Of a stretch of DNA of 64,000 nt, positions 46,374 to 56,943 are shown piece after piece; the stretch's first letter is position 1; every line of letters starts with the position of its first letter. The notes beneath the pieces are model-generated. The model ran no database searches, was not told where the DNA came from, and was given only the letters and a program-made list of their open reading frames with translations. The stretch covers positions 2,034,001 through 2,098,000 of the forward strand of contig BRXU01000006.1 of assembly GCA_030267565.1 (NCBI GenBank). Direction: 5' to 3'. This DNA is from Pleodorina starrii (lineage: Eukaryota > Chlorophyta > Chlorophyceae > Chlamydomonadales > Volvocaceae). The translations under genes were made by a program, and so were the position numbers.

Positions 46374-47864
46374 GTGGGTTAGATAGCGTCCCGGCCGAAT
46401 GTTATAAGTACGCCAAGCGGGAGGTTGAAGGGCGTTTCTTTAATGTGCTCACACCCCATGTCCATCGCTTGTTTGAACACATCCGCAGTACTGGTGACTT
46501 CCCTGCTCAGTTCGAGGTGTCCTGTCTTACGCCTATCCATAAGAAGGGCGATGTTCACGAAAAAGGCAACTATCGCGGCCTGGCGGTAGGTGGGGCCTTA
46601 GCAAAGTGCTATGCGGCCATTTTGGAGCGGCGGCTTAGTCGTTGGGGGGAATTGGCGCAGGCTCGATCTCCGTTTCAGGGTGGCTTTCGCGCGAAAATTG
46701 GCACTATCCACAATCTGCTGTTATTGCGTCATCTCATCGACAGGCATAGGACAGGGCCCCCTAGTAGCACTCCGCTTTTTGTTTGCCAGGTTGATTTTGA
46801 AAAGGCCTTTGATCGCGTTCCACGTCAGCTACTCTGGCAGCGTCTTCGTGAGCGTGGATTGCACGGGGCTATGCTCGACGCCCTGATGGCCGGTTATGAT
46901 CGGGTTGTTTTGCGTGTGAAGGTCAATGGCAAACTTGGCGACCCCTTTGAGGCTATGCAAGGTGTCAAACAGGGCTGTCCCCTTAGCCCCACTCTATTCG
47001 GGTTTTTCGTCGAAGGGTTTGCGGACTACGTAGAAACTAAGGATAAACTTGCCCCGGCCGCCATGTGTGCTAACGAATGCCCGGTAGTTGATGGGCTGCG
47101 CGTTCCTCTCATCCTTTACGCCGATGATCTCAATCTTTTTGCGTTTAGCCACCGCCGTCTGATGTGTCTCTTGCAGGCGTTGTCTGAGTGGTGTACTGCC
47201 TTTGGTCTGACGGTTCACACCCGTAAGTGCGAGGTTGTGTATTTTCACGCGTCCCAGAACTTACGAGACCTTGCGTACCGTTTGGTTAAGGTTGGCATGA
47301 GGCGTATAGTAGGCAACACGATCCGCTTTGAGGAGATGGAGTGGGCGCGTCGCGCTAGGTACCTAGGGTTACATTACGGTCCGGAGGCACCTTTCGAGGC
47401 ATGCACAGACGAGCTATTCGGTGCGGGACAACGTGCGGTTTTTGCTCTCGTTAACAAGCTTCGTAGACGTGGTTTGTTCGTTCCTAGGGTCGCCCTCAAG
47501 TGCTTCGACGTGCAGATCTGCGCCATCCTTTCCTATGGGGTACAGGTCTGGGGCCCGTCGTACATTCTGCAAGTGGTCGAACGTGATCGCGATCCCCAAG
47601 GTCGGTACTGCTATTTTGAAAAGGCGCTAGAGAATCGGATGGTTGGGCTGCAACGCATGTACTTGAAGATGCTCGCGGGTCTGCGCAAGATTCCGGACAA
47701 CAAAATCCTGTTCAGGGAATTCGGGCAGCGCCCGTTGCATGTTCACTGGGCTTCTCTCATCTACCGTTTCTGGAACAAGCTGGTTGATGCGAAGGGTTCG
47801 GTATTCCATAGAGTGTTTCGTGAGGAAATTCGGCTTGCCCTTCAATCAGACCTGTCAGGTCATG

Positions 47865-48265
47865 TGTAATGAATGAGATTCTATCTTAGTCTGCCGAGTG
47901 GCAGACCTGTGCGGAAGCGTGGATCTTTATACCTTAAGCGAGTGAGATGTAAACGGAAGTATGGGCCTAGCCAGGTATTGAACCTGGACCGCAGTGTGTA
48001 AGCAATGGCACCATGCCCTAGCCCGACGAGCTTTTCTACTTCACGGCCCTCGCCAAGCCGCGTGCCGTATCGTGATACGACAGATCAAGTATCTTCTGTG
48101 TTCTCTCTGAGAACTCCTCCAACTAGTGACACACCACACTAGTCTTTGGACTGTATTAATATTTATTATTAATATGTCTGATTCTGTTACTTTGAAGGTT
48201 CACGTTGTTACGTGACCAACGGGTCGGACCCGCGCGTCGCGCTAAGTCCGGAATCCCCTCTTACA
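47865..48265 (-). repeat. 3' LTR of the chromovirus
   Basis: 401 bases. Identical by eye to the 5' LTR except for one base four positions from the U5 end (TTACA here, CTACA there). Confidence 0.95.
47962..48026 (-). other. tRNA-like segment inside the LTR (3' LTR copy)
   Basis: On the minus strand a 65-base segment has a perfect T arm CCAGG-TTCAATA-CCTGG with a full B-box (GGTTCAATACC), an acceptor-like pairing of GGGCTAG with CTAGGCCC (one bulge), and a tiny D-like hairpin GGCA-TGG-TGCC. It is shorter than a tRNA, so a decayed or captured tRNA is likely. The same segment is in the other LTR at 55866-55930. Confidence 0.45.
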
Positions 48266-48312
48266 TTCCCCCCCCTCTGAAGCGAGCGTCCCGAGAGCTC
48301 CGTAGTACGGAT

Positions 48313-49437
48313 TTATCTTCTCTTCAGCCGTTTGGACCGTCGAAGCGGTTGGTTCGGCTGTTCTTGTTCGGGAATGTGCCGCTTTTGGGTTTGGGGTTGG
48401 GGCTGGGCAGGTGCATTCCTGCAGCTTTTGTACTCGTCCAAGAGGGTCGCATGGCGCGTTCCCTTGCGCTGCGCCTCTGGGAGTTTTGCTTCATATGCCT
48501 CCAGCTCGTGTTCCACGGGTGCGGACTCGCGAAGATTCGCTTCAGGCTCCCAGCTGTTATCCGTAGCTGGAAAGCCGTGCCATTTGACAAAGTATTCCCG
48601 CCGGTGCTTGCCGCGACCGATAGGAACGTCTTTGTGATCCACAATGGCCTCAACCGCCCAATAGTCTTCGCCGCCTAGATTGAAGGCTGGCGGTGGGGGT
48701 GTTCTGCCGTCCGACTTGTAGTGTCGCAAAAGCGAAACGTGAAACACTGGGTGTACGCGCATCTCAGGAGGCAAGTCTAGCTTCGCTGCTACCGGGGTAA
48801 CCATTTTCAGAATGCGAAACGGCCCGATGTAGCGCGGCATGAGCTTGCGCGTTCCAGGGGTTTTGAACGTAATGTTCTTGGTGTGGAGCAACACTTCTTG
48901 ACCCTCGGCGAACACGATCACCTTCCGGCGGCGGTCAGCGAACGTCTTTTGTCGTTCCTGCGCAGCTTGCAGGCACGCCTTTGCCTTCGCGAGTCGTTCG
49001 CGTAAGTTGGACTCAAAAGATGCGGCAGCCGGCACTTTGGTAGGCAATTGGAGATCAGCCGGGGTGCGTGGCTGTCGTCCACCATTCAGCATGAACGGAG
49101 TTGTGCCTATCGATACCTGCTTGGAGCTGTTTATGGCAAACTCAACAAGCGGTAGATGTTTGTCCCAGTCGTCTTGCAACGGGGAAATGTAGTGCCGTAG
49201 CGTCTCCTCGAGGAGACGGTTCATCCGTTCCGTCTGGCCATCGGTTTGTGGATGAAACGCCGTGCTCATGTAAAGTTGAGTACCAAGTAGGCGTGTTACT
49301 TCTGTCCAAAACTTGCTCGTAAACCGAGGATCACGGTCCGAAACAATGTTTTTGGGTAAACCGTGTTGCTTGAAGACAGTTGACACGAACAGGTGCGCCA
49401 AGTCTTCTGGCTGTGACGGATGTGTGTGTGGCAGCAA
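48313..49437 (-). CDS. Chromovirus Pol, C-terminal part: integrase core and chromodomain
   Basis: Frame shifted by +1 relative to the upstream Pol frame. It carries the rest of the integrase catalytic core (SDRDPRFTSKFW with the second Asp; STAFHPQTDGQTERMNRLLE with the catalytic Glu), the GPFRILKMV/HPVFHVSLLRHY region, and a chromodomain (VEAIVDHKD, EYFVKWHGF, NSWEPEANL). The Arg/Lys-rich end RRSKRLKRR could be a nuclear localisation signal. Chromodomains direct such integrases to histone-marked chromatin. The first 10 or so codons before the shift point are not integrase-like. Confidence 0.88.
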   Translation of the reverse strand: MLPHTHPSQPEDLAHLFVSTVFKQHGLPKNIVSDRDPRFTSKFWTEVTRLLGTQLYMSTAFHPQTDGQTERMNRLLEETLRHYISPLQDDWDKHLPLVEFAINSSKQVSIGTTPFMLNGGRQPRTPADLQLPTKVPAAASFESNLRERLAKAKACLQAAQERQKTFADRRRKVIVFAEGQEVLLHTKNITFKTPGTRKLMPRYIGPFRILKMVTPVAAKLDLPPEMRVHPVFHVSLLRHYKSDGRTPPPPAFNLGGEDYWAVEAIVDHKDVPIGRGKHRREYFVKWHGFPATDNSWEPEANLRESAPVEHELEAYEAKLPEAQRKGTRHATLLDEYKSCRNAPAQPQPQTQKRHIPEQEQPNQPLRRSKRLKRR

Positions 49438-52400
49438 AGTGGGTCATCTTGCTGAGCCGGTCCACAAACACTACAATCGCGTCGTGCCCATCTTGCGTGG
49501 TTGGCAGCTGTGTAATCAGATCCATTGATACGCTTTCCCACACTCCCTGCGGGATCGGGAGAGGTTGCAGTAGACCCCCCGGCTTCTGATTAAGGGGTTT
49601 GTTGCGCTGGCACTTTGGGCAGGAAGCAACATACTGTTGCACGTCTGTGTGGAGACCAGGCCACCAGAACCGTTTTGCGATCGCGTCTTGGGTGCGGTGT
49701 GCACCGGGATGCCCACTGAACGGAGTGTCATGGTACTCCCTCAGGATTTGCGTGCGCAGCTGTGGGACATTGGGTACGACTATCTGGTTACCGTGGTACC
49801 AGAACCCGTCCTTTCGTTTTAACTGCAACCGTGCTGCCTTCGGTTTCTTAAACCAGGGATCTCCAGCATATCCCTCACGAATGAGTCTGCCAATGTCGCT
49901 ACCCGTAAGCGCAGTGGCAAGCACCGATAGCACTGCCTCATGTACCCTGCTTAGTGGGTCTGCCACGTTTGTTCGACCCGGACGGTACTCCCACTTCATG
50001 CCACTGAAGCGCTGTAAGTACTCCATCCACCTTGCTTGTCTCCGCGACAGCAAGCCAGCTCCGCGCTGCTCATGCAGATACACCAGGGGGTTGTGATCGG
50101 TCAACAGAAGAAATTCACTTCCCTCTAGGTAACAGCGCCACTCTTGGAGTGCGTGAATTACTCCAAGGCATTCCTGATCCGTGGTCGTGTAGTTGTATTC
50201 TGCACTAGTAAATTTCTTACTAGTGTAGGCTACGGGGTGGCCGTTCTGCATAAGTACGGCGCCCGTTCCGTTAACCGACGCGTCGGACCAGACCTCGAAA
50301 GGTTTGTCGAGCTGTGGTAGGGCGAGGACAGGTGCGTTGCTCAAGGCGAATTTGATGCCATCAAATGCAGCTTGGCATTTGGGCGACCAGATGAAGGGCA
50401 CTTTCACACTGGTTAAAGCTGTCAAGGGCGATGCCAGCCCCGAATACCCCTGTATGAAGCGTCTGAAATAGTTGGCAAGGCCTAGGAATTCGCGCAATTT
50501 GCGAACATCTTTGGGAACAGGCCAATTTTGTACTGTTGCGATTTTAGAATCGTCGACTTTCAGACCTTCGCGGCTCACAATGTGGCCTAGGAATTTCAAC
50601 TGTGGCTTGTTGAATTCACATTTGGACAGCTTTGCCTTGAACTGGTGCTCTCTGAGCAGTTGAAGCACGGTACGAAGGTGCCGTACATGCTCTTCTGGTG
50701 TTTTGCTGAACACCAGAATGTCGTCTAAGTATACCAGCACAAATGTGCCGATATGCTTAGCAAATATGCCATTCATCACTGACTGAAATGTTGCAGGCGC
50801 GTTGGTCAGTCCAAAGCAAAGCACCCTGAATTGGTACTGACCCATTCCCGGAGCGATAAAGCCCGTCTTCTCGACGTCTTTATCAGTAATACGGATCTGA
50901 TAATAGCCTTGCTGGAGGTCAAGCGAGGAAAACACTCGCGCACCTTGTAGCGTATCGAAAATTTCAGTGATGTTAGGCATGGGATACCGCCGTTTCACCG
51001 TGAGCTTATTTAACGCCCGGAAGTCAAGGCACAAACGGAGCTCGCCGTTTGGTTTCTGGACGAATAGGATTGGCGCCCCAAAGGGAGAATTGGAGGGCTC
51101 AATGAAACCTTTCGCCAGAAGATCTGTGACCTGTTTTCGTACCTCTTGCATTTCATTTGGTGAAAGCCTGTACATACGTTTGGCCGGCGGTTCCGCGTTT
51201 GGCACGAGAGGAATTGTGTGACCAATACCGCGGTCTGGCGGCAGTCCTTGGAGCTCTTCGAAAACGTCCTTGTATTCATCAATTAGCGCCTGTATATCCT
51301 GGTCCGGTGCCAGGTCGTCGGGAGCACTGCCCGGTGTGCTCTGGACTGCTGCGGCGAGCGTAGCATCGCCGTTGGACGTCGGCTCCTTGCGCACTATCAT
51401 GAGATAACTGCGCGCTCCTCGTGCAATACTCTTGGCTGCTTGTTTTGCCGAGAGTATGTTGGTAGCTGATTCTGACAGCTGAGGTAATGCCACATTAAGC
51501 CACGGGTCTCCAAAGTCGGAGCCTTCCGCCCCGTGCTGGGCATACTGCGGGGTGAGGGTGAGGTTTGCGCCGTTGTGCGAAATTGTGAGGGTGTCCTTGC
51601 TGTAGTCGAGCTTGGCTTGCCTAAGCTTGAGCCAGTCTGTGCTCAGAATAATCTGCACCCCTGGGACGCCCTCTTTCAGCACGAGCAGAGTAATCCGCTC
51701 CGTGTGTTTTCCAATTCGCAAGCGCAGTCTGACTTCTCCGAGAAGTCTGGTCGTTTCGCCTGACGCAACCCGTACGGAGGATATGCGTGACGAACGAACC
51801 CTGAGGACTAGCTGTTTAACGGTCGTTTGATCGACGAAGCCGTGCGCTAACCCGTTGCAACAAGCACCGCTGTCGACGAGAATATTTACGGGTTTTGCTT
51901 CCGCGTATCCGTCGAAAGTCATTGTGTAAGAGCTTCCTGGTCGCAGTACGTTGAGCTTCGCTGATTCGGTTGGTGGATCCCACCAGAGTTGAATCGGCCA
52001 TAAGCTTTCTGGCAATTCCTTTCGCACTCCCTCTGCGTCAGGAACCGAAAGCAACTTTGAGCCCGGAGCGTAGGTTTTATAAAGCCTATATCCCGCTGCT
52101 CGAAAAAATTGCTCAACATGCGGCCATTGAGGCGCGACAAACATCGCTGCCGTACTGCTCGGTGCTTTTGCTTTGCACTTGGTGTAATGCTGCTGCCATT
52201 CCCGGATTTGAGTATAGGGAGGGTGAGCCCAAACGATTTCCCCCGAGACATCTTGGTCGAAGAAGGAACGTTCAGGACAGGCAAAGCGGTTACACAAGCT
52301 ATTGCTGCCGTCATTGTTCGCCGCGGCATCGTATGTGAACTTCTTCTCCAGTTCACCCTCAATCCGTCGAAATTCATCCAACGAAAACATACGATCCGAA

Positions 52401-52555
52401 AATTCGCCTTGCGGCGGTGGCGGAAGCAAATCACTCGTGTCGGCTACAGCTTGCACGGTCTGTGGCACCCCATCCTCAGAGGTTTCACGCGCCAACACCG
52501 CCGCAAGCTTAGGTTCGTCTGAACCCGCCGCTCTCCCTTCACGCTTGCCGGACCC
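49331..52555 (-). CDS. Chromovirus Pol, N-terminal part: protease, RT, RNase H, integrase start
   Basis: Open from the codon after the Gag TGA (52558-52556) and in the same frame. Aspartic protease: ILVDSGACCNGLAHGF. Reverse transcriptase: LRLCLDFRALNKLTVK and FVLVYLDDILVFSK (catalytic YLDD). RNase H: FEVWSDASVNGTGAVLMQ and LLTDHNPL. Integrase zinc finger H-H-C-C in SGHPGAHRTQDAIAKRFWW and SCPKCQRNK, then the first catalytic Asp in VSMDLITQLP and VVFVDRLSKMTHFAATHTS. After about 49409 the frame leaves integrase homology because of a 1-base shift and ends at 49331. No ATG lies near the start of this frame, so synthesis as a Gag-Pol fusion is likely. Confidence 0.93.
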   Translation of the reverse strand, partial: GSGKREGRAAGSDEPKLAAVLARETSEDGVPQTVQAVADTSDLLPPPPQGEFSDRMFSLDEFRRIEGELEKKFTYDAAANNDGSNSLCNRFACPERSFFDQDVSGEIVWAHPPYTQIREWQQHYTKCKAKAPSSTAAMFVAPQWPHVEQFFRAAGYRLYKTYAPGSKLLSVPDAEGVRKELPESLWPIQLWWDPPTESAKLNVLRPGSSYTMTFDGYAEAKPVNILVDSGACCNGLAHGFVDQTTVKQLVLRVRSSRISSVRVASGETTRLLGEVRLRLRIGKHTERITLLVLKEGVPGVQIILSTDWLKLRQAKLDYSKDTLTISHNGANLTLTPQYAQHGAEGSDFGDPWLNVALPQLSESATNILSAKQAAKSIARGARSYLMIVRKEPTSNGDATLAAAVQSTPGSAPDDLAPDQDIQALIDEYKDVFEELQGLPPDRGIGHTIPLVPNAEPPAKRMYRLSPNEMQEVRKQVTDLLAKGFIEPSNSPFGAPILFVQKPNGELRLCLDFRALNKLTVKRRYPMPNITEIFDTLQGARVFSSLDLQQGYYQIRITDKDVEKTGFIAPGMGQYQFRVLCFGLTNAPATFQSVMNGIFAKHIGTFVLVYLDDILVFSKTPEEHVRHLRTVLQLLREHQFKAKLSKCEFNKPQLKFLGHIVSREGLKVDDSKIATVQNWPVPKDVRKLREFLGLANYFRRFIQGYSGLASPLTALTSVKVPFIWSPKCQAAFDGIKFALSNAPVLALPQLDKPFEVWSDASVNGTGAVLMQNGHPVAYTSKKFTSAEYNYTTTDQECLGVIHALQEWRCYLEGSEFLLLTDHNPLVYLHEQRGAGLLSRRQARWMEYLQRFSGMKWEYRPGRTNVADPLSRVHEAVLSVLATALTGSDIGRLIREGYAGDPWFKKPKAARLQLKRKDGFWYHGNQIVVPNVPQLRTQILREYHDTPFSGHPGAHRTQDAIAKRFWWPGLHTDVQQYVASCPKCQRNKPLNQKPGGLLQPLPIPQGVWESVSMDLITQLPTTQDGHDAIVVFVDRLSKMTHFAATHTSVTARRLGAPVRVNCLQATRFTQKHCFGP

Positions 52556-55353
52556 TCACTCCTGCATCTGGGATGGGTCCTGCCGACCCTGGCCTCGGCC
52601 TCCCCGGCCACCACCGCGCCCGCCCCCGTTGCCGAACCGGCCGCCACCGCGGCCTCCCTTCCGCTCGTTGTGGTTAAACCGCGGCGGCTTGCCCGCGATT
52701 TGAAGAACGCGGTCGCACTCGCCGCTCGCCTTATGGGCCTTGATGTCATCTCTCAAGAGCCCACAGTCGCGGCAGTTAATTGGCGGCCGCTTTTGCTGGC
52801 GGTCCTGTTTTTTGGACAGTTTGTTACGGGGGGTGGAAACAAAATTTAAGTTCGCGGATTTCAAGTTAGCGACTCGCATCCGGATTTCCTGTCCCAGGGC
52901 GAACTCAATTAAGTCATCCAGGCGTTTCCAGTCGCGACCGGCTGCGTCGGTAGCGCACCATTTGCGCATCGACGGAGGAAGGCCGTGCACGTACCAAGTG
53001 ACCATTTCTACTTGCGTCATGCTACGCGCATCTCGAATAATATCGCGGAAACGCTGCGTGTACTCTTGCACGCGTTCGCTAGATTTCATGTTATGCTCCC
53101 CGGCAAACAAACGGTCGCGCACTTCTTGCTCGGTATGACGGCGCACATCCCCATATTGCAAAAGGAATGCAGCTCGCAATGCAGGCAAAGTGAGGACCTC
53201 ATTTTTGTCGGTGTACGACTTTAGTAATGCCTGGCCCCACTCCTGCGCTTTTCCCGTCAACCAGAAAACGAAGTGCTGAGTCGGTGCCAGCCCGCTAGTT
53301 TCCATGTATTGAACGAGGGAATCAAACCATGTCTGTGTGCACGAAATGTGCGTGTCGGTTTTCCCGTGGAACTTAACAGGGACAGGCAATTTTCGACCCG
53401 AGCCCACCTCACTGTGGGTGCCGTTCATGTTGCCGGAAGCCTGGGCGCGCCCCGCCACCTGGGCGTAGTTGGGCGGCAACGGCAGCTGCGCCGCCGGAGC
53501 TGCGGCGTGGCCCGCGGCCGGCTGCTGCTCCAGTGGCTGCTGCTGCAACCTGGGCTCGAAGAACACCGCCGGCGGCATGTCCGGGTTCGCCGCCGCGGCC
53601 GCCTGCAGGTAAGAGACGGCCGGCCGCGGAGCGCCGTTGCTGGGCCCTGGGCCGCTCTGGGCGCTCTGGTGCGCCTGCTTCCGGTTGTCCAGGGCCCGGA
53701 ACGTCTCCTTGCGTGCCCAGGTAACGAACTCGTCGTCCGGCTTGCCGTGGATGCCGGACTGCCGGAGTCCCTCCACCACCGATTCCCAGATCAACCTGAA
53801 CGCGTCGCTGAACGTCGTGTCGTACAGCAGGTCGGCCATCCGCCAAATGTCGCGGACGGCGAGGGGACGGATCTCCCTGATCTGGGCGGCGTACAGGCCG
53901 CGGGTGGTGGGGTACCGCGGCTGCTCGGGCGCGGAGCCCTCCCCGGGGGAGCCCGCAGCCGCCTGCTGCTGCACGCCGCCCGCCTGAGCCGCGGCGCCGT
54001 TGCTGGGCGCTGCGTTCTGGGGCGGCTGCTGCACGTTGTTGCCGGCCGGCTGCTGTCCGTCGGGAAGCTGCTCCCCGCGGTCGCTCCCGCCCTGGCGGCG
54101 AGCTGGGCTCGCCGCCCGGCGGCGAGCCTCCTCCTGGCCCGCCCCCGCGTTCCATGCCTGCTGGTCCTTCAGCAGCGCGTCGAACTCGCGCTCCGCCTGC
54201 CGCTGCGCCCGCTTGGCCAGCTTCGAAGCCTTGCGCCGCTCCTTCTGGGAGCGCTTGGCCTTGCCGTCCTGCGACGAGGACGAGCTGCTGGCGGTCTCAG
54301 CGGAGTCCGACACGATGGACGAGGCTGATGCCGAGGTAGTTGGAGCCGACTTGTCCGCCTTGCGCTTGCAGCGCTGGCGGGCTTCGGCGTCCTTGCGCCG
54401 CTTCTCCTTCAGCTTCTTGATCTCCCTGGCATTGTTGTCCTGCTGCACGAGGAGCTTCTTCACCATCGCCATGAGCTCAGCGACGGTGTGGGTCTCCTGA
54501 CCCTCAGCGGCCTGGTTATCGGCCAGGCCGAGCTCCTTAACAGCGTTGGCCAACTCGGAGGCCTCCTGTGGGTCGTCCGAAAGAATATTGCCATCATCAG
54601 AGAAGCGAATATGTTTCTTAGGAACGGCTTTGGCCCGCCTAGCGGGACTATGCTTGTAACGCCGAGGTCATAGGTGCCGTACAGTCGGCTAGCATAAAGC
54701 CTAAGAAAGGCGTCGCACAGCATCTCGAGTAGCCTTTGCTCCGCCCAAGCACTACATTGGTATCGAGACCAGTACTGTCGTACAGTCTCTCAGAGGTCGT
54801 CAGTTCGATCCCTGGTACTCGCGGAAAGGCTTCCACTCCAGAAAACCTTGCAAATTAAGGCTAGAGGCATGCATGCCGCGGCATGACCTGACTTGGGAAG
54901 TTGTCCACCCCAATGCCGAAGACCTGGCTAAGACCCCAGGCATGCAAAGGTGGTGAAAGGCGGAGTGGACTGTGCACAGACACTGCGAGGACGCAGTGAG
55001 GACCGAGGACGTTCCCTTCAGAGGGGGGGGAATGTAACGCCGAGGTCATAGGTGCCGTACAGTCGGCTAGCATAAAGCCTAAGAAAGGCGTCGCACAGCA
55101 TCTCGAGTAGCCTTTGCTCCGCCCAAGCACTACAATGCTTGTGATCGTCGGCGATCACGCGACTGGACTTGACCCTCGCTCGGGTCTTAGCGTAAAGCGA
55201 ACCAATGGTTTGCTTTTTGATCTGCTTTTTGCCCTTCTTCTTTTTGATGGGCCTCACCGGAGCGGGGTTGAGGTCGGCGACCTCAGCCGACTCATCGGCG
55301 GCGGCGCGCGGCGCGGCCGCGAGCTCGCCCGTCTCCTTGGAGTGAGAAGACAT
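52556..55353 (-). pseudogene. Chromovirus Gag, interrupted by a TRIM
   Basis: ATG at 55353 opens MSSHSKETGELAAAPR and a Lys-rich stretch (RPIKKKKGKKQIKKQ). The frame is cut at 55139 by the TRIM at 54655-55134 and its AGCAT duplication (ATGCT on +), and continues in the same frame from 54654 (SPARRAKAVPKKHIRFSDDG). It has a coiled-coil, then a retrotransposon Gag core near HFVFWLTGKAQEWGQALL, then a Cys/His knuckle of unusual spacing, CRDCG...AHKASGEC (C-x2-C-x9-H-x5-C), and an RGG-rich tail ending SQMQE before TGA. An ATG at or near 54553 could start a shortened Gag. Confidence 0.85.
54655..55134 (+). mobile_element. TRIM (miniature LTR retrotransposon), intact, nested in gag
   Basis: 480 bases. 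Identical 102-base LTRs at 54655-54756 and 55033-55134 start TGTAACGCC and end CACTACA. Target duplication ATGCT at 54650-54654 and 55135-55139. A primer-binding site TGGTATCGAGACC begins one base after the left LTR, and the polypurine tract CAGAGGGGGGGGAA directly precedes the right LTR. No coding capacity. The inside also holds a B-box-like GTTCGATCC near 54803. It lies in the opposite orientation to its host element. Confidence 0.92.
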
Positions 55354-55389
55354 CGCAAAGGTAACCTGGATACGAGGATACCACTGTAA

Positions 55390-55768
55390 TGTAGTGCTTG
55401 GGCGGAGCAAAGGCTACTCGAGATGCTGTGCGACGCCTTTCTTAGGCTTTGTGCTAGCCGACTGTACGGCACCTATGACCTCGGCGTTACATCTCCCCCC
55501 CCTCTGAAGGGAACGTCCTCGGTCCTCACTGCGTCCTCGCAGTGTCTGTGCACAGTCCACTCCGCCTTTCACCACCTTTGCATGCCTGGGGTCTTAGCCA
55601 GGTCTTCGGCATTGGGGTGGACAACTTCCCAAGTCAGGTCATGCCGCGGCATACATGCCTCTAGCCTTAATTTGCAAGGTTTTCTGAAGTGGAAGCCTTT
55701 CCGCGACAACCAGGGATCGAACTGACGATCTCTGAGAGACTGTACGACAGTACTGGTCTCGATACCAC
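55390..55768 (-). mobile_element. Second TRIM copy lacking one LTR, at the chromovirus LTR/leader junction
   Basis: On the minus strand the order is primer site (GTGGTATCGAGACC) directly against the chromovirus 5' LTR, TRIM interior (55768-55492) and one TRIM LTR (55491-55390). The interior is nearly identical to the intact TRIM. The left TRIM LTR is missing. TTACA follows the right LTR and equals the end of the chromovirus LTR, so a TTACA target duplication followed by loss of one TRIM LTR explains the arrangement. Confidence 0.8.
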
Positions 55769-56169
55769 TGTAGTGAATGAGATTCTATCTTAGTCTGCCG
55801 AGTGGCAGACCTGTGCGGAAGCGTGGATCTTTATACCTTAAGCGAGTGAGATGTAAACGGAAGTATGGGCCTAGCCAGGTATTGAACCTGGACCGCAGTG
55901 TGTAAGCAATGGCACCATGCCCTAGCCCGACGAGCTTTTCTACTTCACGGCCCTCGCCAAGCCGCGTGCCGTATCGTGATACGACAGATCAAGTATCTTC
56001 TGTGTTCTCTCTGAGAACTCCTCCAACTAGTGACACACCACACTAGTCTTTGGACTGTATTAATATTTATTATTAATATGTCTGATTCTGTTACTTTGAA
56101 GGTTCACGTTGTTACGTGACCAACGGGTCGGACCCGCGCGTCGCGCTAAGTCCGGAATCCCCTCTTACA
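55769..56169 (-). repeat. 5' LTR of the chromovirus
   Basis: 401 bases, matching the other LTR except for one base at the U5 end, which is the point of fusion with the TRIM remnant. It contains the same tRNA-like segment at 55866-55930. Confidence 0.95.
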
Positions 56170-56943
56170 TCATGGGTGGGGAGCCTTGGTTTTGCGAGGA
56201 CTCAGGTGTTTGGGACAGGACCACTGGCCGGAGCCCCCGCCGGGTCTTGATTTGGAGGGCCAAGTCGACTTTGTTGCGTCGCGTTCGCTTAATATTGGGA
56301 ATTTGATTTGGACGTTGGAGCAGAGGTTTGATGAAGACTGGCTTAACAGCAGGCTTCTCACGCCCCCGCGTGAGTTCGTTTCTGATAATCACAAGCCCGG
56401 TGTGAAGGTGTGTCGGCACACGCACTGGATGGGGATGCCGAAACATACGGCTGGGTATATCCCCCCCAAACCCTATGCTTCTCTTTTGCGTTTTCGTCTA
56501 GGAGCCTGGCCTATTGAGAATAATCGACCTGCTGGACGGCAGAGGTCTGAGCGTACTTGTAGGGTCTGTGATAGTGGTACTGAAGACGAATATCATGTGC
56601 TGATGGAGTGTTCGGCGTACGACGATATACGTCAGGGTTTTAGTACCCTAGGTGTCATTTTAGGCGAGTACGTTTCACCGCCTATGCTTGCTGTTACGGG
56701 CGCGGACAATCAACGCGGCTTAGCTGAATTAGTTCACAACATCTGGGTACGGCGGTCTTCTATGCTAGTTTGAATGTTTGTTCATTTTACCTGTTTTCGT
56801 TGTGATCCTGCTTTAGTTTCTGCTTGGCGACATAGTTCTTAGCTCCTTTTTGACCTGCCTATTCTCGCGGTCCATGAGCCTCCTGGCTCGTCTGGGCCTT
56901 ATGAGCTCTCGAGCTTGTAATACAATACAATACAATACAATAC

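Follow-up and report, generated by a model that had tools for sequence, protein, structure and literature searches.

Hybrid insertions within single target-site duplications suggest that a gene-less TRIM is mobilised by a chromovirus in Pleodorina starrii

Most TRIMs have no known helper. In the stretch of Pleodorina starrii DNA analysed here (the window, 64,000 nucleotides), a TRIM lies inside a chromovirus with which it shares short replication signals, and the question raised by this locus is whether that chromovirus family supplies the machinery by which the TRIM moves. The host element occupies positions 47865-56169 on the minus strand, and its two LTRs (TGTAAGAGG...TTACA) differ from each other at one position. 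Its frames matched the Pfam families Retrotrans_gag, RVT_1, RT_RNaseH, Integrase_H2C2, SH3_Tf2-1 and Chromo, with Asp_protease_2 below the cut-off; gag, the order protease-RT-RNase H-integrase and a C-terminal chromodomain identify it as a chromovirus (Ty3/gypsy). A search with gag returned one relative, from ENA. The coordinates of all features are collected in Table 1.

The complete TRIM (54655-55134, locus L096) lies in plus orientation inside gag of this minus-strand element. As the preliminary description had it, this is a gene-less element of 480 bp, well under 1 kb: two identical, short direct LTRs (TGTAACGCC...GCACTACA) enclose a 276-bp interior without an assigned ORF of at least 180 aa, a primer-binding site (PBS) follows the 5' LTR, and a polypurine tract (PPT), CTTCAGAGGGGGGGGAA, precedes the 3' LTR. 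Copies occur at many loci with a target-site duplication (TSD), and the window copy, having its own, is an ordinary later insertion. A genome search for further copies yielded at least 44 matches with an identity of 97% or higher, including 40 full-length ones (40 of 227 candidates were scored). The LTR-PBS pattern CACTACANTGGTATC matched 100 times against 0 for its control and the PPT pattern TTCAGAGGGG-N{0,8}-TGTAA 112 times against 0, so these patterns are not chance matches. The insertion breaks gag, as had also been stated: the frame stops after 111 codons, compared with at least 571 open codons, to the end of the locus, in copy L011. The wider claim that the parasite disables its supplier holds for the window copy, whose pol frame is also shorter (1074 aa versus 1413 aa in most relatives), but not for the family. 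An open 1413-aa frame was present in 13 of the 27 chromovirus copies with RT identity of at least 94%, and the family is therefore not disabled.

Table 1. Features of the window and structures of nine TRIM/chromovirus hybrids elsewhere in the genome.
Feature	Position	Strand	Remarks
Chromovirus TSD TCATG	47860-47864, partner 56170-56174	.	
Chromovirus 3' LTR, 401 bp	47865-48265	-	ends CATTACA
Chromovirus PPT CTTCAGAGGGGGGGGAA	48266-48282	-	
Chromovirus pol	48313-52498	-	two overlapping frames, broken in window copy
pol frame with chromodomain	48313-49437	-	
pol frame with RT, RNase H, integrase zinc domain	49331-52498	-	
Chromovirus gag, main part	52556-54553	-	Pfam Retrotrans_gag
TRIM TSD ATGCT	54650-54654, partner 55135-55139	.	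complete TRIM
TRIM 5' LTR, 102 bp	54655-54756	+	
TRIM PBS TGGTATCGAGACCAG	54758-54772	+	15 nt complementary to the genome's initiator tRNA-Met
TRIM PPT CTTCAGAGGGGGGGGAA	55016-55032	+	
TRIM 3' LTR, 102 bp	55033-55134	+	
Chromovirus leader and gag N-terminus	55140-55384	-	own PBS TGGTATC at 55377-55383
TTACA between TRIM LTR and chromovirus PBS	55385-55389	-	last 5 bp of chromovirus LTR, or TSD left by a previous TRIM insertion
TRIM LTR of recombinant piece	55390-55491	-	
TRIM internal region of recombinant piece	55492-55768 (PBS 55753-55767)	-	joined to chromovirus 5' LTR at G-TGGTATC
Chromovirus 5' LTR, 401 bp	55769-56169	-	ends CACTACA
Hybrid, TSD CCCAT	C15		complete TRIM, then PBS, gag, pol, 3' LTR
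Hybrid, TSD TGGAC	C5		inverted 55-bp TRIM LTR end
Hybrid, TSD TACGC	C20		inverted complete TRIM on 5'-truncated chromovirus
Hybrid, TSD GATGG	C44		inverted TRIM
Hybrid, TSD CAACA	C82		TRIM LTR variant replaces 5' LTR
Hybrid, TSD CGGGC	C41		TRIM LTR and interior, switch into leader of a copy 84-88% identical there
Hybrid, TSD ACTCG	C4		chromovirus, CCCTAAAA-like repeats, TRIM
Hybrid, TSD CGAGC	C6		rearranged chromovirus, 3' LTR, tRNA-like 14 nt, TRIM
Hybrid, TSD TGATG	C1		TRIM, then pol from inside

Two TRIM copies had been counted in this one host, but a second complete nested TRIM was rejected on inspection. Positions 55390-55768 contain a single TRIM LTR besides the TRIM interior, the TRIM 5' LTR being absent; the chromovirus 5' LTR precedes this piece, the chromovirus PBS and leader follow it, and its left join falls at the shared TGGTATC. 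On the minus strand, the chromovirus 5' LTR is followed in turn by G, TGGTATC, the TRIM interior beginning at GAGACC, the TRIM PPT, a single TRIM LTR, TTACA, G, TGGTATCCTCG and the gag leader, where chromovirus copies of ordinary structure have CATTACAGTGGTATCCTCGTATCCAGG. What was taken for a second TRIM in the window is a TRIM/chromovirus recombinant. A pattern for the chromovirus LTR end, whose fixed last base class lets LTR ends with other letters escape, matched 24 times in the genome (control 0): 16 ends were ordinary (CCTCGTATCCAGGTT), one was a close variant, one was of another kind and six carried TGGTATCGAGA. Of these six, the ends in the window and at C28 lead into TRIM interior and one at C6 into a TRIM LTR, the remaining three being followed by other DNA.

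We then compared the replication signals of the two elements. CTTCAGAGGGGGGGGAA followed by TGTAA is identical in the TRIM (55016-55037) and the chromovirus (minus strand, 48266-48282 and the LTR start), both PBSs begin with TGGTATC, and the LTR bodies differ, all in agreement with the preliminary description. The PBS identity spans just those 7 nt: the TRIM continues with GAGACCAG and the chromovirus with CTCGTATCC, and complementarity to the initiator tRNA-Met is 15 nt for the TRIM and 7 nt for the chromovirus. A pattern derived from the TRIM PBS had exact matches in tRNA genes of C2, of C18 and of a large C36 array; three fetched matches were called tRNA-Met(cat) by ARAGORN, and their T loop, ATCGAAA, is of the initiator type. 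The complement of this tRNA with CCA added begins TGGTATCGAGACCAGGTTTCG. Chromovirus ends at C3, C5 and C6:1989400 (TGGTATCGAGA), and at C6:408655, match the tRNA complement over 11 to 14 nt; these stretches could have been copied from the primer tRNA, although at such lengths a TRIM PBS would serve as source just as well. Pairing with the tRNA beyond the PBS did not exceed that of shuffled sequences (162 of 1000 were as good for the TRIM and 662 of 1000 for the chromovirus leader), and TTCGATCC in the TRIM interior was rejected as a Pol III B box or second tRNA-complementary block on the same 162 shuffles.

Searches of the genome revealed that such signals are not peculiar to the two elements. 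TACA-NN-TGGTATC matched 136 times against 9 in the control, and among the 100 listed of these, tallied by hand and then counted, the PBS continued with GAGACCTA in 28, GAGGGTCAG in 17 (a family of 74% RT identity, here the 74% family), GAGACTCGG in 12 and GAGTTCTAGG in 6 (the 72% family); the continuation GTCGG had spacer CT in 17 and other spacers otherwise. The PPT core TTCARAGGGG..TGTA, with most TRIMs excluded, matched 110 times against 2 in the control, and the LTR starts that follow it among the 100 listed, tallied in the same manner, were TGTAGCAGC (38), TGTAACGATA (27), TGTAGCAAG (19) and TGTAAGCTT (9). The exact form TTCAGAGGGG(G)n..TGTAA gave 112 matches, against 0 for the reversed control, in a pattern whose last letter leaves out most chromovirus copies. 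All of the 100 listed have TRIM-type LTR starts except a chromovirus-type start (C27) and a TRIM/chromovirus joint (C1), and the exact form is thus confined, among those 100 of 112, to the TRIM and the window chromovirus. The TRIM PPT is closest to that of the window chromovirus, yet common to the clade. Since TGGTATC-type PBSs and near-identical PPTs occur in several other families, PBS and PPT together were rejected as sufficient proof of partnership; the signals therefore indicate a shared clade of machinery and not tailoring to one element. The preliminary description had named recurrence of the same PBS and PPT in many unrelated LTR families as contrary evidence, which is partly what is seen, and had argued from tailoring to a non-autonomous element running on chromovirus machinery. 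That argument is weakened, but its conclusion is supported by the nine hybrids and their common 5-bp TSDs described below. As a separate observation, the LTR family starting TGTAGCAGC has a closely related PPT, is not tied here to a coding element, and may be another non-autonomous rider.

Insertions in which the two elements are physically joined provided more direct evidence. Chromovirus-leader loci were matched at 33 sites, of which 30 were fetched with 1.5 kb per side (3.1-3.3 kb). TRIM sequence of at least 50 bp was present in ten of the 30 (L015, L016, L021, L023, L028, L031 and L035-L038), which amount to eight independent loci, since C3 and C10 are both represented twice; an eleventh locus has a 32-bp TRIM piece. 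From leader loci and LTR matches together, nine hybrids had both outer ends known, each ending in TRIM on one side and in chromovirus on the other, and these were used for the TSD comparison, with the C3 and C10 hybrids outside it. The outer 5-bp flanks were identical in all nine, compared with 0 of 72 mismatched pairings, the match at C82 weighing less as its flank is a repeated minisatellite. Six ordinary chromovirus copies, examined as a control, had perfect 5-bp TSDs. Since a single 5-bp target duplication surrounds both kinds of terminus in each hybrid, the hybrids integrated as single molecules; as far as genome sequence can establish it, this shows that the TRIM and chromovirus DNAs had already been fused when one integrase reaction inserted them.

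Other joints add to this picture. At C28, where both ends are chromovirus and the flanks match at 4 of 5 positions (CCGAA/CCGAG), the join chromovirus LTR-G-TGGTATC-TRIM interior is the same as in the window, and an inverted TRIM repeat is also present. The junctions TRIM-TTAA-TRIM and TRIM-TTAA-chromovirus-LTR occur four times in the genome, all at C3 (control 0), and look like joined unprocessed cDNA ends because TT and AA adjoin the LTRs in the TRIM. Filler was seen at junctions in C20, C10 and C4. At C4:6543800-6543980 (L076, L080), CCCTAAA/CCCTAAAA repeats lie between chromovirus pol and TRIM within one TSD, as if telomere-like sequence had been captured before integration; repeats like these would fit a chlamydomonad alga.

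TRIMs were also sampled for TSDs, 40 being taken at even spacing from 99 LTR-PBS matches, with the window recombinant left out. A perfect 5-bp TSD was found in 26. Among the 14 others, four are joined to the window chromovirus (L089, L090, L109, L112), and L102 (C10:1336219-1336819) is an inverted, 3'-truncated TRIM that separates the LTR end from the interior in a chromovirus of the 72%-RT-identity family. L117 and L119 belong to tandem arrays, L098 and L120 are truncated, L099 has two extra T at the U5 end before GATAG, and L111 has one TSD mismatch; for L100 and L118 no explanation of the absent perfect TSD was found. In L088 (C2:8684001-8684601) the TRIM is folded back on itself, an LTR and part of the interior being followed by an inverted TRIM LTR piece, so that two U3 ends were integrated; its outer flanks, CTACG, match by eye.

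Could the hybrids have arisen after integration, by insertion of TRIMs into chromoviruses and subsequent deletion or unequal recombination that removed parts of both? Nested TRIMs with their own TSD do exist, as at 54655-55134, and in the order TRIM LTR-TTACA-PBS at 55385-55389, TTACA could be the TSD left by a previous insertion where LTR and PBS meet. Such an origin, however, predicts unrelated outer flanks, and the matching flanks in nine of nine hybrids make it very improbable. Misassembly is less probable still: although TRIM and chromovirus are young, high-identity repeats apt to confuse assembly, misjoined reads would neither give nine sites the same 5 bp on both sides nor place the junctions at LTR ends and PBS. 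We therefore favor fusion before integration, and estimate at roughly 85% the probability that the TRIM is mobilised in trans by the machinery of the window chromovirus family.

How far this family is the only helper is a separate matter. The TRIM might be a general hitchhiker of the whole chromovirus clade, with the window family merely its most active helper at present, and we consider this a serious possibility, if somewhat short of an even chance. It would be consistent with the PBS type and PPT core common to several families, with the position of L102 inside a copy of the 72% family, and with a match at C10:1331434 at the same 1595-bp distance to RT as L102. The L102 joint, however, has no shown outer TSD, and among the 100 LTR-PBS matches 12 lie in or at window-family copies, two at the 72% family and none RT-proximal to the 74% family, on a by-eye comparison of positions. 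The search for hybrids began from the window chromovirus and so under-samples other helpers. Exclusivity to the window chromovirus is accordingly unproven, one TRIM joint (C10) involving the 72% family.

If the window family is indeed the helper, TRIM RNA would be packaged with chromovirus RNA in shared particles, initiator tRNA-Met would prime reverse transcription of both, and the integrase would presumably be the chromovirus's own, whose terminus shares a molecule with the TRIM. The PBS joins of the window and C28 could have formed by transfer of plus-strand strong-stop DNA from one element to the PBS of its partner, while the remaining joins resemble template switches, fold-backs and end-to-end joining of unprocessed cDNA ends; the inverted TRIM repeat at C28 is as expected of a fold-back copy. 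The hybrids suggest that the parasite may often spoil helper cDNA, which is testable. It is a more speculative and rather unlikely extension that the TRIM behaves like a defective interfering genome, whose 15-nt PBS, matching the primer tRNA better than do the 7 nt of the helper, captures primer and strand-transfer steps in shared particles and diverts much helper cDNA into hybrids. If so, the parasite would limit its helper during reverse transcription and not by inserting into it.

TRIMs and template-switch complexes were known already. Gao et al. 2016 (PMC4717578) give a related larger element for 11 of 289 TRIM subfamilies, with the proviso that the interactions need verification. Our TRIM resembles those described there in size, short LTRs, PBS, PPT, non-coding interior, some tandem copies and young insertions. 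There, helper candidates were found by the sequence similarity of a larger element to the TRIM, whereas here the link is made by hybrid insertions, which point to a helper unlike the TRIM in its LTRs and in its interior, the interior ends excepted. The literature covered also included the ant TRIM paper (PMC3532108) and work on Cassandra arrays (PMC7215508). Fused elements within one TSD were interpreted by Sabot and Schulman 2007 (PMC1950507), for Triticeae LTR retrotransposons, as having arisen during reverse transcription, ahead of integration; BARE-2 and long Veju elements are named in the same paper. The present hybrids are alike in that fused elements are flanked by one TSD, in nine of nine cases. 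They differ in that the Triticeae complexes join two members of one family through a third, shared LTR, with outer LTRs alike, whereas here a TRIM is joined to a chromovirus of unrelated sequence, in both orientations, with one TRIM and one chromovirus end. BARE-2 and long Veju, which are non-autonomous or hybrid, have been attributed to template switches between RNAs packaged together; they became element families, whereas the hybrids here are mostly single loci with different structures. In the open-access literature searched, with subscription papers mostly outside it, we found no report of TRIM/helper hybrids within one TSD, nor direct physical evidence linking a TRIM to a dissimilar helper. 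From hybrids of this kind it can be read which elements came together in a particle and were taken by the same integrase, and any assembled genome can be searched for them without expression data.

Several minor observations concern the surroundings. The start of the pol frame 49331-52498 (minus strand) has a weak Pfam Dam (N6-adenine methyltransferase) match at residues 46-104, with an E value of 4.3e-05 but 23.7 bits against a cut-off of 28.1. ARAGORN found no tRNA gene in the window, and an Rfam scan of it gave one weak match at chance level. The chromovirus splits a non-LTR retrotransposon with an RVT_1 domain (46445-47869 and 56186-56773, plus strand), whose RT frame ends at 47869; ATACA-type repeats lie near 56919-56943, 3' of this interrupted element. 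The array at C36:423259-536917 is a long tandem repeat of units of about 1.14 kb that terminate in the 3' part of initiator tRNA-Met, one unit being confirmed by ARAGORN.
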